From a virus: DNA of 31,540 bases. The position numbers were made by a program, and so were the translations under genes. Under the pieces are notes generated by a model. The model did no database searches. It saw only the letters and a list, made by a program, of their open reading frames with translations, and was not told the DNA's origin. Shown in pieces: positions 6,485 through 18,920 of the stretch. The DNA lies in IMG/VR virus record IMGVR_UViG_3300048032_000129, positions 1 to 31,540 of that record. One strand, given 5' to 3'. Numbering within the stretch: the stretch's first letter is position 1; each line of letters begins with the position of its first letter.

Positions 6485-7873
6485 ATGGCAACTTACGTTA
6501 ACGATTTACGGCTCAAAGAAATAACCACTGGCGATGAGTCAGGAACTTGGGGCACCAGTACGAATACAAATTTGGAGTTGATAGCTGAGGCTTTTTCCTT
6601 TGGGACAGAAGCTATTACGACTAATGCAGACACCCACACGACTACGATTGCTGATGGTTCTACTGATCCGGGCCGTTCGCTGTTCCTGAAGTACACCGGC
6701 ACTTTAGATAGCACTTGTACGATCACGATAGGGCCGAACACGATCAGCAAGCTGTGGTTGATTGAGAACGCAACCAGTGGCTCACAGAGCATCATAATCA
6801 AGCAAGGTAGTGGTGCTACGGTCACAATTGCTAACGGCTCCACGAAAGCGATCTATAGCGATGGCGCAGGTGCAGGTGGCGCGATGGTCGATGCTTTCGT
6901 TGACCTTGATCTTACTGGCACGACAACGGTTTCGGCACTGACCGCATCTGGGGCTTCTACGCTTTCAGGCGGTGCAACAATATCTGGTACGACAGCCGTT
7001 GCTACGCTTACTGCTTCTGGAAATGCGACAATCTCTGGGAATGCGTCAGTCACTGGAAATGTAACTGCTGCAAACTTAAACGCCGATGCTACGGCAGGAG
7101 TGTATGGCAGTTCTTCCAGCCCTGTAGTATTTACAGTTACAGTAGCCTCTAAAACTTCGGCGCATCCGTATAACGGAGATGGAAGCAGTTCAGGTTATTT
7201 CTTCGACGGGATTGAGTCCCCTGCGATCAGCCTGCACGGCACGGATAGCGTCACAGCTAACAGTGAATACGTTTACCGCTTTGACCAAGCAGACGGGTCA
7301 AACAGTGGTCATCCTTTGTTGTTTTACATGGATGCCGCTAAAACAACAGCTTACACCACGGGCGTAACAACTAACGGTACTCCGGGAAGTGCAGGAGCTT
7401 ACACACAGATAGCAGTAGACAGAGAAACGCCCAGCGTTCTTTACTATCAGTGTTCAAGCCACGCTTACATGGGTAACTATGCCTACAACGCAGCTTCTAC
7501 TAACTTAAATGGCATCAAAATGCCGACGGCTGATGGGAGTTCGGGCCAAGTCTTATCAACTAACGGTTCGGGAGTGTTATCTTTTGCTACTGTTGGCGGG
7601 GCTTACAATTCTTGGCTTGTCAAAACCAGCGCATATACTGCTCTAGCTGGGGATCAAATTATTGTTAACAGCGCGAGCGCAGTCACAATAACGCTGCCTG
7701 CTTCTGCAAGTGCTGGAAATACAGTAATTATTAAGGCCACAGGTGGCGGTACAGTAACCGTTGGGCGTAACTCACAGAAGATAAACTCAACGGCGGCTGA
7801 TGGAACCATACTAAGTGGAAGTTCCTCTCAGCTTGTATTTGTAGACGCTACAATTGGATTCTTAGAAATTTAG
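6485..7873 (+). CDS. Tail fibre protein with cupredoxin-like domain
   Basis: A 462-residue protein. Residues 1-140 (MATYVNDLRLKEITTGDESG, with WGTSTNTNLELI) are the conserved virion-attachment end seen in many podovirus-like tail fibres. Residues 140-205 are Ser/Thr/Ala/Gly repeats (LTASGASTLSGGATISGT, SGNATISGNASVTGN), probably a beta-helical shaft. Residues about 213-335 form a separate unit with His276 and Cys323-x2-His326-x2-Met329 (YYQCSSHAYMGNY), the ligand pattern of type-1 copper cupredoxins. Residues 345-462 are a second beta-rich module (SSGQVLSTNGSG, ITLPASASAGNTVIIK). GGAGAAG before ATG is the likely ribosome site. Role: host recognition, inferred. Metal binding is untested. Confidence 0.82.
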   Translation: MATYVNDLRLKEITTGDESGTWGTSTNTNLELIAEAFSFGTEAITTNADTHTTTIADGSTDPGRSLFLKYTGTLDSTCTITIGPNTISKLWLIENATSGSQSIIIKQGSGATVTIANGSTKAIYSDGAGAGGAMVDAFVDLDLTGTTTVSALTASGASTLSGGATISGTTAVATLTASGNATISGNASVTGNVTAANLNADATAGVYGSSSSPVVFTVTVASKTSAHPYNGDGSSSGYFFDGIESPAISLHGTDSVTANSEYVYRFDQADGSNSGHPLLFYMDAAKTTAYTTGVTTNGTPGSAGAYTQIAVDRETPSVLYYQCSSHAYMGNYAYNAASTNLNGIKMPTADGSSGQVLSTNGSGVLSFATVGGAYNSWLVKTSAYTALAGDQIIVNSASAVTITLPASASAGNTVIIKATGGGTVTVGRNSQKINSTAADGTILSGSSSQLVFVDATIGFLEI

Positions 7874-7885
7874 AGGAGAAATCAG

Positions 7886-9061
7886 ATGGCAGTTCTTTTA
7901 GGTGCAAAACCACCAATACCCACAGCGCAGTTTGTTATAGGTGAGTCAAAGACTTTTACAGCCCCAATGACAGGAACTATTAAAGTAATTATTACTGGCG
8001 GTGGGGGCCAAGGCGCGTTTCTTGCTAATAAAAATTCAACACCAAATTCAAATGTTGGTGACGCTACAGGCGGCGGTGCGGGTGGTTATAGTGAAAAAAC
8101 TTTTGCTGTAACAGCAGGAGAAACCTTTACGATTACTGTTGGTGCTGGAGGCTCTAGTGCGCTTGCACCAAATGACATTAACAGTAGTAGGGTAGGCAAC
8201 GCCGGGGCCAACTCCAGCTTTGTTACAGCTTCCGCAGCGGTGTCTGTAAGCATGGCTGCTAACGGTGGGGGCGCTGGACAGTTTAGCGCAGCTACCTCTA
8301 GTGCTGTTACTACTGCTGGAGGAACAGGCGGCACAGCTAGTGGTGGAGACTTCAACTACACAGGCGGTGCTGGTGGGTCTATTACAAGAGTTGCAAACAA
8401 CAGTAAAAGTGCAATGACTACAGGAGGCGGGGCTGTTGCTCTTTACGGCACAACTTACCGTGGTGGTAACATAACGTTAGGCACCGCTAATGAAAGTTCA
8501 TACATGATTGGCTCTACTGGTGGCGCAGGTGTTGGTGGTAACGGAGGCGACATTGCTTTCTCTGGAACTGGCTCCAACGCACGTTTTAGTGCTGGTGGAA
8601 GTGCAAGTCGCTCAGGCGCATCAGATGAGTCAGGGAGCGGTATGAGTACCAGTATCATCATGGCCGAGACGCCGGGAGCGCCTATGACCTCCTCTACAAT
8701 TAGTCTTATTGATGCCCAAGGTTTTGCATACGGAGGAATGTATTCTTACAACGCGAGTCCTTCCGTTTCTACGTCTGGATTTGGCGGTGGTGGCGGCGGT
8801 GCTACTGGATACAACCAAACTCCTAGTTACCAATACTTCTACTCTTATGCAGGAACTGCTGGTGGCTTTGGTGGAGGAGGCGGTTGTACTTTTGTCAGTG
8901 GTGTGGATTACCTTTCTACTGGTCAAGTTCGAGCAGGCCCGGGAGGCACTGGTGGTGGTGGTTCAGGCGCTTACAGCGGCCCGTTTTCTACCATGACATC
9001 TGCTACCTACCGTTCATGGGCGGCGGCTGGCGATGGCCTTTGCATCATCATGTACATTTAG
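7886..9061 (+). CDS. Glycine-rich tail fibre/adhesin-like protein
   Basis: A 391-residue protein with GAGGAGAAA upstream of ATG 7886. The N-terminus (FVIGESKTFTAPMTGTIKVI) is a beta strand pattern found at the start of Gly-rich phage fibre domains. The rest carries many poly-glycine blocks (TGGGGQG, TGGGAGGY, NGGGAGQ, GFGGGGGGATG, GFGGGGGC, GGTGGGGSG) spaced by variable segments. It ends with DGLCIIMYI, a buried strand. Poly-glycine blocks alternating with variable loops recall the adhesin tips of T-even-like phages, where the loops set host range. That comparison is by architecture only. The chaperone-like gene directly downstream supports a fibre role. Confidence 0.78.
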   Translation: MAVLLGAKPPIPTAQFVIGESKTFTAPMTGTIKVIITGGGGQGAFLANKNSTPNSNVGDATGGGAGGYSEKTFAVTAGETFTITVGAGGSSALAPNDINSSRVGNAGANSSFVTASAAVSVSMAANGGGAGQFSAATSSAVTTAGGTGGTASGGDFNYTGGAGGSITRVANNSKSAMTTGGGAVALYGTTYRGGNITLGTANESSYMIGSTGGAGVGGNGGDIAFSGTGSNARFSAGGSASRSGASDESGSGMSTSIIMAETPGAPMTSSTISLIDAQGFAYGGMYSYNASPSVSTSGFGGGGGGATGYNQTPSYQYFYSYAGTAGGFGGGGGCTFVSGVDYLSTGQVRAGPGGTGGGGSGAYSGPFSTMTSATYRSWAAAGDGLCIIMYI

Positions 9062-15300: not shown

Positions 15301-16440
15301 ATGTCAGCAACCACAGAACAATTAAGAGAGCAATCGAAGCAAAGAACCCAAGAGATTCTTAATCAACCTGGTTCAATGCAAAGATTTGCTCCTAGCCAGC
15401 TACAGCAAATGAATCCTGGCCTAAGGGTTAATCCAGCCACTGCTCAGTCAGCGTTCCTTGGCAATATAGCCAACCCACTTGCCGGAGGCTTTCAACAACA
15501 ACGTGCTCGTGGCGCCAACTATTTGAATTACGAAGCAATGCCATCAAACGTTGGCGGTCCCCTTACAGACCCGCAAGTTCCACCAGGCTACGTTCCACCT
15601 GGAACTCAGCCAGAAACCATTAAGGTTTACCCAGATGGCACGCCTGTCCCAGAAGAGACAGATGTTTTCGACCCGTCAGATATTGAAAGCAACAAAGATC
15701 AGTTTTTAATTGACATAAACCAGACCAGAGCGGAGCAAGGATTGCCGCTTTTTAAGACGTTTGACGAATACATTGCTAATGCCATAGGTGACATAGGAAC
15801 TGGTTATATAGGCATGGCTGAAGGCGGTATTGCCTCAACTTACCCACAAGAAATGTTCTTGGGTGGCTTGATGTCGGCAATTGGCAGTGGCGCAACTGCT
15901 CTTGGAGGTGCTGCAACAAAAGGTTTAGGTAGTCTTAAAGACATTGCTTTGAAGGGCATGCAAAATTACAACAAAAACATGGCTCCGGCTGGTGGTATCG
16001 GTGCCCTTGGCGGAAAGCGCATAGAAGATATGACTCGTGAAGAGCTTCTTGAATACATCAAGAGTGGGGGTAAGTCTTCGGGTGGCCTTGGCGCAGATTT
16101 AAAATCCATAGGTAGCGGCATAACAGATATTGTTAAAGGAAGACCTACTGGTGGCACAGCCGCGTTAGGAGAGATGGGCGATTCATCAATGCTTTATGCG
16201 GACGGTGGCGACGTTAAATACCCCCGCATGAACGGCCCTATCTCTGGTCCAGGGACTGAAACATCTGACGATATCCCTGCCATGCTTAGCGATGGCGAGT
16301 TTGTTGTAAATGCTAAAGCAGTTCGTGGAGTAGGCAAGTTGGGTGGTGCCAATGGCTCTAAAGCTGACCAGCGCAGGGAAGGCGCACGCATGATGTATGC
16401 GCTGCAAAAAGCTGGTGAAAAAGCAATGAGGAAAGCGTAA
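15301..16440 (+). CDS. Probable internal virion protein with a 'GPG-SD-IPAMLSDGEFV' motif
   Basis: A 379-residue protein starting one base after the previous stop. The N-terminal third is Gln/Asn/Pro-rich (LREQSKQRTQEILNQPGS as pattern). A Gly/Ala-rich hydrophobic part follows (MSAIGSGATALGGAATKGLG, about residues 191-210). At about 316-346 lies a motif including SDDIPAMLSDGEFVVNAKAV and RGVGK, widespread in aquatic phage proteins, then a helical tail (RMMYALQKAGEKAMRKA). MAEGGIA and YADGGDV are short Gly-Gly motifs shared with neighbours. Position before three large genes of internal-protein type suggests it is packaged. It overlaps the next gene by TAATG. Confidence 0.72.
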   Translation: MSATTEQLREQSKQRTQEILNQPGSMQRFAPSQLQQMNPGLRVNPATAQSAFLGNIANPLAGGFQQQRARGANYLNYEAMPSNVGGPLTDPQVPPGYVPPGTQPETIKVYPDGTPVPEETDVFDPSDIESNKDQFLIDINQTRAEQGLPLFKTFDEYIANAIGDIGTGYIGMAEGGIASTYPQEMFLGGLMSAIGSGATALGGAATKGLGSLKDIALKGMQNYNKNMAPAGGIGALGGKRIEDMTREELLEYIKSGGKSSGGLGADLKSIGSGITDIVKGRPTGGTAALGEMGDSSMLYADGGDVKYPRMNGPISGPGTETSDDIPAMLSDGEFVVNAKAVRGVGKLGGANGSKADQRREGARMMYALQKAGEKAMRKA

Positions 16441-18920
16441 TGTCATTTTTTAGCGGTTCTACCAAGGAAGTCGAAACAGCCGTACCAACAGTTCAGCCTC
16501 AAGCTCAACAGCAATATTCTGATCCTGCTGTTGAGCTAACCTCCCGTCAGTTGATGGACCTGTATTTCAACCCCGAATACGGGATGATAAACCAGCAGAT
16601 TCCAATCCCTGTACAGCAAGTAGCCGGTCTTTCGCCATTAGAAGTACAAGCACGCAACCTAGCCGGTGGGCTTGGCGGATTTGGCCAGCAGCTTTCTGAG
16701 TCGCAAGACATGTTCCGTAGGGCGGCAAGAGGATTTGACCCTCGCTCTGCTGGGGCGTTTGCAGATCCACGCGCTAGATCTTTATATGAACAAAGCACCC
16801 GTGGTTATGACCCTCGCATGGGTCAACAATTCGTGGACCAACAAGCTCGTGCGATGCAGATGGGCGCTTCAAGAGATATTGGTCGCGCCCAAAGAGGTAT
16901 GGGTCGAGAAGCCTTTTTGGCTCAACGAGGCATGATGGATGCTGCTAGAGCAACTGGCCTAGAAGCTGCCATTGGTCAAGCAGGGTTAGATACCGCTGGC
17001 CGTGACATTAGACAAGACATTTTGGCTTCTCAAAGAGGCATGGGCGCTGCTGGCGACAGGGCGGTTCAAGAGGCTCTTGTTGGCCAAAGAAGATTAGATG
17101 CTGCGGGACGCGGCATTGATCGCGACGTTGGCTCTGCAATGATGGATCTGCGTGGCGCTGAACTTGGTGCTGGCAGAGAGTCTCGCATTGGTCAAAGGGC
17201 TATGGGGCGCGCTGCCCAAGGGATTGGTGGACAAGTTGGCGGTGCTCAAGCTGGCGCCATGGATGCTGCTCAGCGAGCAAGAATGCAGACACAGATGGCG
17301 GGGCAAGATCTTCGCTCTGCTGGTCAAATGGGTAAAGCTGCCGCACTTCAAGGCATTGCGGGTCTTGCAGGCACAGGCGCTCAGTTCGATCCATCCTCAG
17401 TAAGCAGTTTCATGGACCCTTTCAATAGAGATGTTATTGAAGCTCAGCAAGCCGAGATTGCACGTTTAGGCGAACAGCAAAAGATAGCTGCTCGTGATCA
17501 AGCAGTTCGATCTGGCGCCTTTGGCGGCTCTCGCGGAGCCATAGCACAGGCTGAGATTGGTCGTAACGTCTTGCAGCAACAAGCTAAGACGGGCGCAGAG
17601 TTGCGCTCACAAGGCTTCCAGCAGGCACAGCAGGCCGCACAGCAGGCGTTTGAGCAGTCCCAGGCTCGTAGGCAGCAAGCTGCACAAATGACCGGCTCTC
17701 TGGGTCAGGCAGGCGCACAGACGGGTATCAGTGCCGCACAACAAGCAGCGAACTTAGGGCTGAGCGCAGAGCAGTTGGCGCAGCGTAGCGCGCTTGAGGG
17801 CGGTCAACTTGGCCTTAGTGGCCTGACTTCTCAAGCAGACATCGCTCAACGCGCTGCACAGATGGGTATATCTACCCAGGAGTTGGCCGGTAGGCTTGCT
17901 CAACAACGAGGCCAGTTAGGTCTTCAGCGGGGCCAATCTCAAGTTGATATTGCAAGACAAGCTGCAGACTTAGGCATTTCTACTCAAGAAATGCAAAGCA
18001 GAATAGCTCAGCAACAAGGTCAAATGGGTTTGCAATCTGGTCAAGCTCAAGCTGATATTGCTCAACGCGCCGCACAATTAGGCATGTCTGCTCAAGAATA
18101 CGCTGGCCAGATGGCGCAACAGCGTGGCGCTCTAGGATTACAGGCGCAGCAAGGCATTGGTGGTCTAGCGGGACAACGCGCAGATATCGCCAGAGGTATC
18201 GGATCTCAGTTCCAATCTGCTCAACAGCTTGGCTCTGGAATCTTTGGAGATCAAATGTCTCGCATGCAAGGTGCCGCAGGAGGTATGGACAGACTGTCTC
18301 GCGGCGCATTTGGCGATGCATTAAGTGCCTATCAAGCTGGACAGCAAGGCATGCGTGCAGGCGCTCAAGGCATTGCAGGTCTAGGCCAGCAAGGCTTCGA
18401 TATGCTTACTAGCCAGATTGGTACGACGGCTGGATTGGGAGCGACTGGTCGAGGCGTTCAACAACGCGGACTTGATGCTCAATACAAGGCTGCTACGCAG
18501 ATGGCTGATGAGCCGTTCATGAGACTACAGCGAGGCATGCAGGTCCTTGGCCAAGGCAATCAGTTTATGCCTGGATACTCAAGCGGTTACAGCGTTGGCA
18601 CTAATCAAAACCAAACTTATCAAAAGCCAAGCACTTTCTCGAAAGTCGCTAATATTGCAGGCACAGTTGCATCGTTTTTCCCATCTGACATTCGGTTGAA
18701 AGAAAACGTCATGAAGGTTGACGAGACGGATTCTGGCGTTGGTTGGTACACTTGGAGTTGGAATGACACCGCTAAGGCTATGGGGGTTGATGGGCCAACT
18801 GAAGGCGTTATCGCCCAGGACTTGATTAATGTTGATCCTACAGCAGTATCTTTGGGCGAAGACGGTTACTACCGAGTAGATTATTCAAAGGTTGACTATG
18901 AGCGCAAGCAAGCAAGCTAA
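16440..18920 (+). CDS. Gln/Ala-rich repeat virion protein with C-terminal S74-type self-cleaving chaperone domain
   Basis: An 826-residue protein. Residues 80-700 are rich in Gln, Ala, Gly and Arg, with coiled-coil-like helical repeats. At 464-571 three copies of a 36-residue unit stand in tandem (cores DIAQRAAQMGIS, DIARQAADLGIS, DIAQRAAQLGMS), with a weaker copy before them. Residues 749-820 fit the Peptidase_S74 intramolecular chaperone: SDIRLKENV, VGWYTWSWN, EGVIAQDL, then YYRVDYSKV. Ser749 and Lys754 have the five-residue spacing of the Ser/Lys dyad that cuts before the serine after trimer assembly. Context suggests an internal or tail-associated virion protein. Overlaps the next gene by 23 bases. 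Confidence 0.8.
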   Translation: MSFFSGSTKEVETAVPTVQPQAQQQYSDPAVELTSRQLMDLYFNPEYGMINQQIPIPVQQVAGLSPLEVQARNLAGGLGGFGQQLSESQDMFRRAARGFDPRSAGAFADPRARSLYEQSTRGYDPRMGQQFVDQQARAMQMGASRDIGRAQRGMGREAFLAQRGMMDAARATGLEAAIGQAGLDTAGRDIRQDILASQRGMGAAGDRAVQEALVGQRRLDAAGRGIDRDVGSAMMDLRGAELGAGRESRIGQRAMGRAAQGIGGQVGGAQAGAMDAAQRARMQTQMAGQDLRSAGQMGKAAALQGIAGLAGTGAQFDPSSVSSFMDPFNRDVIEAQQAEIARLGEQQKIAARDQAVRSGAFGGSRGAIAQAEIGRNVLQQQAKTGAELRSQGFQQAQQAAQQAFEQSQARRQQAAQMTGSLGQAGAQTGISAAQQAANLGLSAEQLAQRSALEGGQLGLSGLTSQADIAQRAAQMGISTQELAGRLAQQRGQLGLQRGQSQVDIARQAADLGISTQEMQSRIAQQQGQMGLQSGQAQADIAQRAAQLGMSAQEYAGQMAQQRGALGLQAQQGIGGLAGQRADIARGIGSQFQSAQQLGSGIFGDQMSRMQGAAGGMDRLSRGAFGDALSAYQAGQQGMRAGAQGIAGLGQQGFDMLTSQIGTTAGLGATGRGVQQRGLDAQYKAATQMADEPFMRLQRGMQVLGQGNQFMPGYSSGYSVGTNQNQTYQKPSTFSKVANIAGTVASFFPSDIRLKENVMKVDETDSGVGWYTWSWNDTAKAMGVDGPTEGVIAQDLINVDPTAVSLGEDGYYRVDYSKVDYERKQAS
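17721..18152 (+). repeat. 108-bp coding tandem repeat (36 aa x 3, plus a degenerate copy)
   Basis: Within the Gln/Ala-rich gene, three copies of a 108-base unit run from 17829 to 18152, and a weaker copy begins near 17721. They align at protein level with conserved D-I-A-x-x-A-A-x-L/M-G and Q-x-G-x-L/M-G-L-Q. Codon usage differs between copies, so the repeat is maintained mainly at protein level and is not recent at DNA level. Confidence 0.75.

Follow-up and report, generated by a model that had tools for sequence, protein, structure and literature searches.

The window analysed here is a 31.5 kb virus record (31,540 nucleotides, IMG/VR record IMGVR_UViG_3300048032_000129) in which both structural and replication genes are present, the former including a major capsid protein (PF25209) and two SU10-type adaptors (PF24175), and the latter a primase-polymerase, a Cas4-type exonuclease, a helicase and a Sak4 annealing protein. 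On the plus strand at 6485-7873 lies an ORF of 462 aa that PHROG matches identify as a tail fibre (phrog_30742, E 6.6e-39), with a further N-terminal match to phrog_31104 (E 1.5e-24). The fibre comprises this N-terminal domain, a shaft, a module at residues 213-336 and a tip of approximately 125 residues that is common to other fibres, such that the module is situated between shaft and tip. Directly 3' of the fibre (7886-9061, plus strand) is encoded a Gly-rich protein (Pfam PF21722, E 1e-8), which may be a poly-glycine adhesin or a partner of the fibre tip, and at 16440-18920 (plus strand) an 826-aa virion protein bears a C-terminal Peptidase_S74 intramolecular chaperone.

Residues and composition of the fibre module

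The original prediction proposed a cupredoxin-like, possibly copper-binding domain at residues 213-335, which on the 462-aa ORF correspond exactly to 7121-7489; by AlphaFold2, Foldseek and hhalign the domain extends over residues 213-336 (7121-7492, plus strand) and has nine predicted strands. A scripted residue scan finds the four proposed ligands at the positions given for them, all on the plus strand: His276, the putative N-terminal copper ligand, immediately ahead of strand 5 (7310-7312); Cys323, the putative copper thiolate ligand, at the end of strand 8 (7451-7453); His326, the putative C-terminal ligand (7460-7462); and Met329, the putative axial ligand, in a loop of amicyanin length (7469-7471). 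Tyr321 lies two residues ahead of Cys323 (7445-7447, plus strand). In total the fibre contains His at 51, 227, 251, 276 and 326, Cys at 78 and 323, and Met at 1, 134, 282, 329 and 346. CSSHAYM (323-329) is the sole CxxHxxM in the stop-to-stop frames of at least 60 codons in the window, and when the fibre protein was shuffled 20,000 times the pattern arose in 0.01% of cases. The claim that the module departs in composition from the Ser/Thr/Gly shaft holds in part, as Tyr (9.8% vs. 1.8%), His and Pro are enriched in the module region, whereas Ser and Gly are not depleted there and occur at about the level of the rest of the fibre. His227 (7163-7165, plus strand) was also considered as a ligand and was ruled out, as its conservation is limited to the close family (68/82) and it is missing from shorter homologues. 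In close relatives, strands 1 and 2 are linked by a conserved additional loop, KTxAHPYNGDGSSxxY (about 7151-7189), that contains this His.

Predicted fold and relation to known cupredoxins

AlphaFold2, supplied with 52 diverse relatives, predicts a nine-strand sandwich (pLDDT 93.1, pTM 0.86), in agreement with the Greek-key sandwich of 7-9 strands expected of cupredoxins, with strands 1 to 5 at residues 214-222, 236-240, 248-251, 262-267 and 278-281 and strands 6 to 9 at 294-297, 306-311, 318-323 and 331-336, the ligand loop running into strand 9; a model built with 24 close relatives reached a pLDDT of 81.5. Cupredoxins account for 49 of the top 50 Foldseek matches of the deeper model in the PDB, and for 48 of 50 with the independent shallower model, these counts including many mutants of the same proteins; among them are rusticyanin, amicyanin, plastocyanin, NirK, laccases, CueO and the Nitrosopumilus purple cupredoxin. 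Structure prediction and fold search thus agree with the cupredoxin fold originally proposed for the region. The best match was rusticyanin (E 1.8e-3, probability 0.99), although with a TM of only 0.45 and 13% identity, and no match in the PDB fell under an E of 0.001 or reached a TM of 0.5 on the query; these modest values indicate that the window domain is a divergent cupredoxin. Rusticyanin is a free periplasmic electron carrier. A comparison of the Foldseek type with viral models returned 62 matches below 0.001, mostly to marine phage structural proteins. Giant-virus "beta-sandwich proteins" of Pithovirus LCPAC302 and Marseillevirus LCMAC201 (A0A481Z6J5 and A0A481YWX9) likewise match the model.

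Profile comparison points in the same direction. With hhalign, the family profile aligned to bacterial amicyanin-like and plastocyanin sequences at 93.6% probability (89% when two bridge-type rows were removed), with the N-terminal His, the Cys and the C-terminal His in register with the bacterial cupredoxin ligands and the Met in the same loop. Column-shuffled controls gave no more than 1.8%, a reversed control 0.2%, and segments of the fibre outside the module 0.2-1.4%. With the four ligands masked the probability fell to 7.5%, which shows how far the evidence from sequence depends on the ligand motif; masking of the ligand loop gave 18%, with His276 still in register. Taken with the predicted strand positions, the profile alignment would set the ligands where cupredoxins have theirs. 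The upstream His and CxxHxxM had been read as the type-1 copper ligand set, and the order H...C-x2-H-x2-M is indeed present in the fibre. Amicyanin, plastocyanin and pseudoazurin (PF00127) share with the window domain this order and the layout of strands around the ligands, and the amicyanin loop CTPHPFM (PDB 2vmj) has the same C-x2-H-x2-M spacing as the Met329 loop. In contrast to that group, the window domain falls under the PF00127 cut-off, is embedded in a fibre rather than being a free secreted protein, and has its strands 1 and 2 joined by an extended loop (about residues 223-235).

Searches with existing sequence models returned little. The cut-off of PF00127 (Copper-bind) was not reached, as 2 of 56 family members matched (best E 0.049) and the window protein did not, and none of the 56 had a confident match to a Pfam or NCBIfam cupredoxin model. 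PF25489 (At5g54830-like) matched 14 of 56 members weakly (best 0.002), which does not make a confident family. Sequence searches of the PDB with the window domain or the family profile gave weak matches, the best to NirK (0.015) and pseudoazurin (0.21). A protein from a Prochlorococcus genome, L177, does exceed the Copper-bind cut-off (34.8 bits vs. a cut-off of 21.2); it is 42% identical to one phage domain of the family, and the family profile finds it at 5e-11 within a small set. As judged from these alignments, L177 is a bridge from the phage family to the Copper-bind cupredoxins, and exchange between host and phage is possible. The phage domain related to L177 shares its ORF with another domain of the cupredoxin-like family. 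The weak Pfam scores could be taken to mean that the motif arose by chance in a low-complexity fibre and is unrelated to cupredoxins. However, the fold, profile and conservation results, together with the controls, speak against such an origin, which is almost certainly not the correct explanation.

Ligand conservation and distribution among marine phages

Across 128 aligned domains, His276 is kept in 125 of 128, Cys323 in 122 of 126, His326 in 123 of 126 and Met329 in 126 of 126. In an alignment of 56 diverse relatives, which leaves out ligand-free paralogues, the only invariant columns are H276, Y321, C323, H326 and M329. Because some of the scans used patterns over the motif itself and were therefore subject to ascertainment bias, the ligands were recounted with a profile that had its four ligand columns blanked, applied to annotated records of isolate phages found by tblastn. 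H/C/H/M was present in 26 of 26 full domains, which removes motif scanning as the cause of the conservation. His276, Cys323, His326 and Met329 are thus retained in nearly all homologues, very distant ones included, in keeping with the role originally assigned to them.

The exceptions are informative. His, Cys and His are lost together in three N-terminal copies (L072:770-1123, L066:263-634 and L076:722-1084) that keep the rest of the domain sequence and belong to proteins termed adaptor-like from gene order and sequence resemblance, while the fibre copy encoded on the same contig as a ligand-free adaptor copy retains the ligands. At the corresponding N-terminal position of a protein of phage 023Pt_psg01 (L237:1495-1860), which is coded just after the head genes and was assigned as an adaptor on the same grounds, the ligand site is intact. 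In one fibre copy (L026), whose contig also encodes an intact copy, the Cys is replaced by Ser. Joint loss of the three residues is as expected if they act as one site, and the paralogues without ligands suggest that metal is not required for the fold to be kept. It could be argued from these paralogues and from the Cys to Ser copy that the domain is an Ig-like scaffold whose conserved residues are structural, holding no metal in nature, or a metal other than copper. However, the near-invariance of exactly four ligands in otherwise divergent sequences is hard to explain without a metal, and a scaffold of this kind is considered unlikely.

The domain is widespread. Separate scans of viral contigs recovered 301 relatives of the window type and 223 of the type found in cyanophage S-TIM66, and by tblastn 24 annotated phage records contain the window domain and 354 the S-TIM66 domain, the latter from phages of Synechococcus, Prochlorococcus, Pelagibacter (SAR11) and Methylophilales, from cyanophages, and from marine or uncultured viruses. 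The remark that CSSH-type motifs occur in other marine phages is borne out by these scans and the tblastn relatives. Annotations of the proteins that carry the module read tail fibre, baseplate wedge, gp9 connector, virion structural or hypothetical, so that nearly every annotated context is either a structural protein of the virion or a hypothetical one, and the module also occurs in head-tail adaptor-like proteins. Two domain copies are found per phage protein in L102, L126, L104 and L147, in tandem in L102 and L126. Matches in bacterial and archaeal genome contigs were also obtained, and these may be phage-derived. The same domain is present in fibre and baseplate proteins of cyanophages and pelagiphages (phrog_30742, phrog_693, phrog_677 and phrog_32294); the records examined label these proteins tail fibre, baseplate, virion structural or hypothetical, and do not name the domain a cupredoxin. 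No Pfam model covers the module in any of the 56 members scanned, and the open-licence literature yielded no paper that describes cupredoxin domains in phage tails. Thus, while the cupredoxin fold and site are already known, their recurrent use as a virion module appears undescribed.

A model for the module on the virion

Fold, ligand register and strong ligand conservation across marine phages are established computationally, and allow the construction of a model in which residues 213-336 form a cupredoxin domain with a complete putative type-1 copper ligand set, the site binds copper, and the domain serves as a metal-stabilised rigid module; we consider this model likely to be correct. Copper loading is what we infer for the site, and thiophilic metals other than copper are possible. 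As the fibre folds in the reducing cytoplasm, the putative site would acquire copper outside the cell, after lysis or in seawater. The metal would then lock the ligand loop, so that shaft and tip would be separated by a spacer that is rigid and resists proteases. Found not only in fibres but also in the baseplate wedge, in the gp9 connector and in proteins of adaptor-like type, the module most likely serves as a general rigid building block stabilised by metal; a tip dedicated to one receptor would be harder to reconcile with the wedge and connector copies than a structural module of general use.

An alternate scenario may assign the module to adsorption, with a copper-loaded domain docking either on a protein of the host surface or on a receptor for copper uptake, in the manner of an iron Trojan Horse. 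The module is common in fibres, and the fibres are mosaic, as 24 of 150 distinct module ORFs share the tip of the window fibre and differ from it at the N-terminus. In addition, a role as ligands has been proposed in marine phages for iron-binding HxH tail fibres, a type known from marine and other phages such as T4 (gp37) and Alteromonas phage R22Y (PMC11705849). The window fibre resembles these in having a metal site, here putative, within a phage fibre, but differs in both metal ligands and fold, and contains no HxH motif, its five His being placed as listed above. However, the module here lies between shaft and tip rather than at the tip, and the baseplate wedge, gp9 connector and adaptor proteins that also carry it would not be expected first at a receptor; docking by way of copper is therefore conceivable and, on balance, somewhat unlikely. 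A redox function, in which the site would cycle between Cu(I) and Cu(II) and sense or act at the cell surface as electron-transfer cupredoxins do, is suggested by a ligand set and loop that match those of amicyanin and rusticyanin. However, domain and PHROG annotation of the fibre identified no redox partner or enzyme domain, and the virion structural or hypothetical nature of nearly all annotated contexts likewise argues against this function, which is quite improbable. For the metal-stabilised spacer proposed here, adsorption or redox chemistry may provide an additional, though unsupported, function. It is likewise rather unlikely that genuine blue-copper centres are present on the tails and baseplates of a large proportion of marine tailed phages and serve in infection as well as in stability, whether by making adsorption depend on copper or by acting as a redox trigger.

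Cultured phages that encode the module include P-SSM2, P-SSM4, Bellamy, HTVC028P and Mosig, so that virions can be assayed directly for metal and infection compared with and without copper. The complete ligand set, together with its recurrence in the tails of ocean phages, indicates that virus particles may carry copper. Loading of the sites with copper would make phage particles an unrecognised class of copper proteins and possibly a marine reservoir of organically bound copper, paralleling what has been proposed for iron with HxH fibres.
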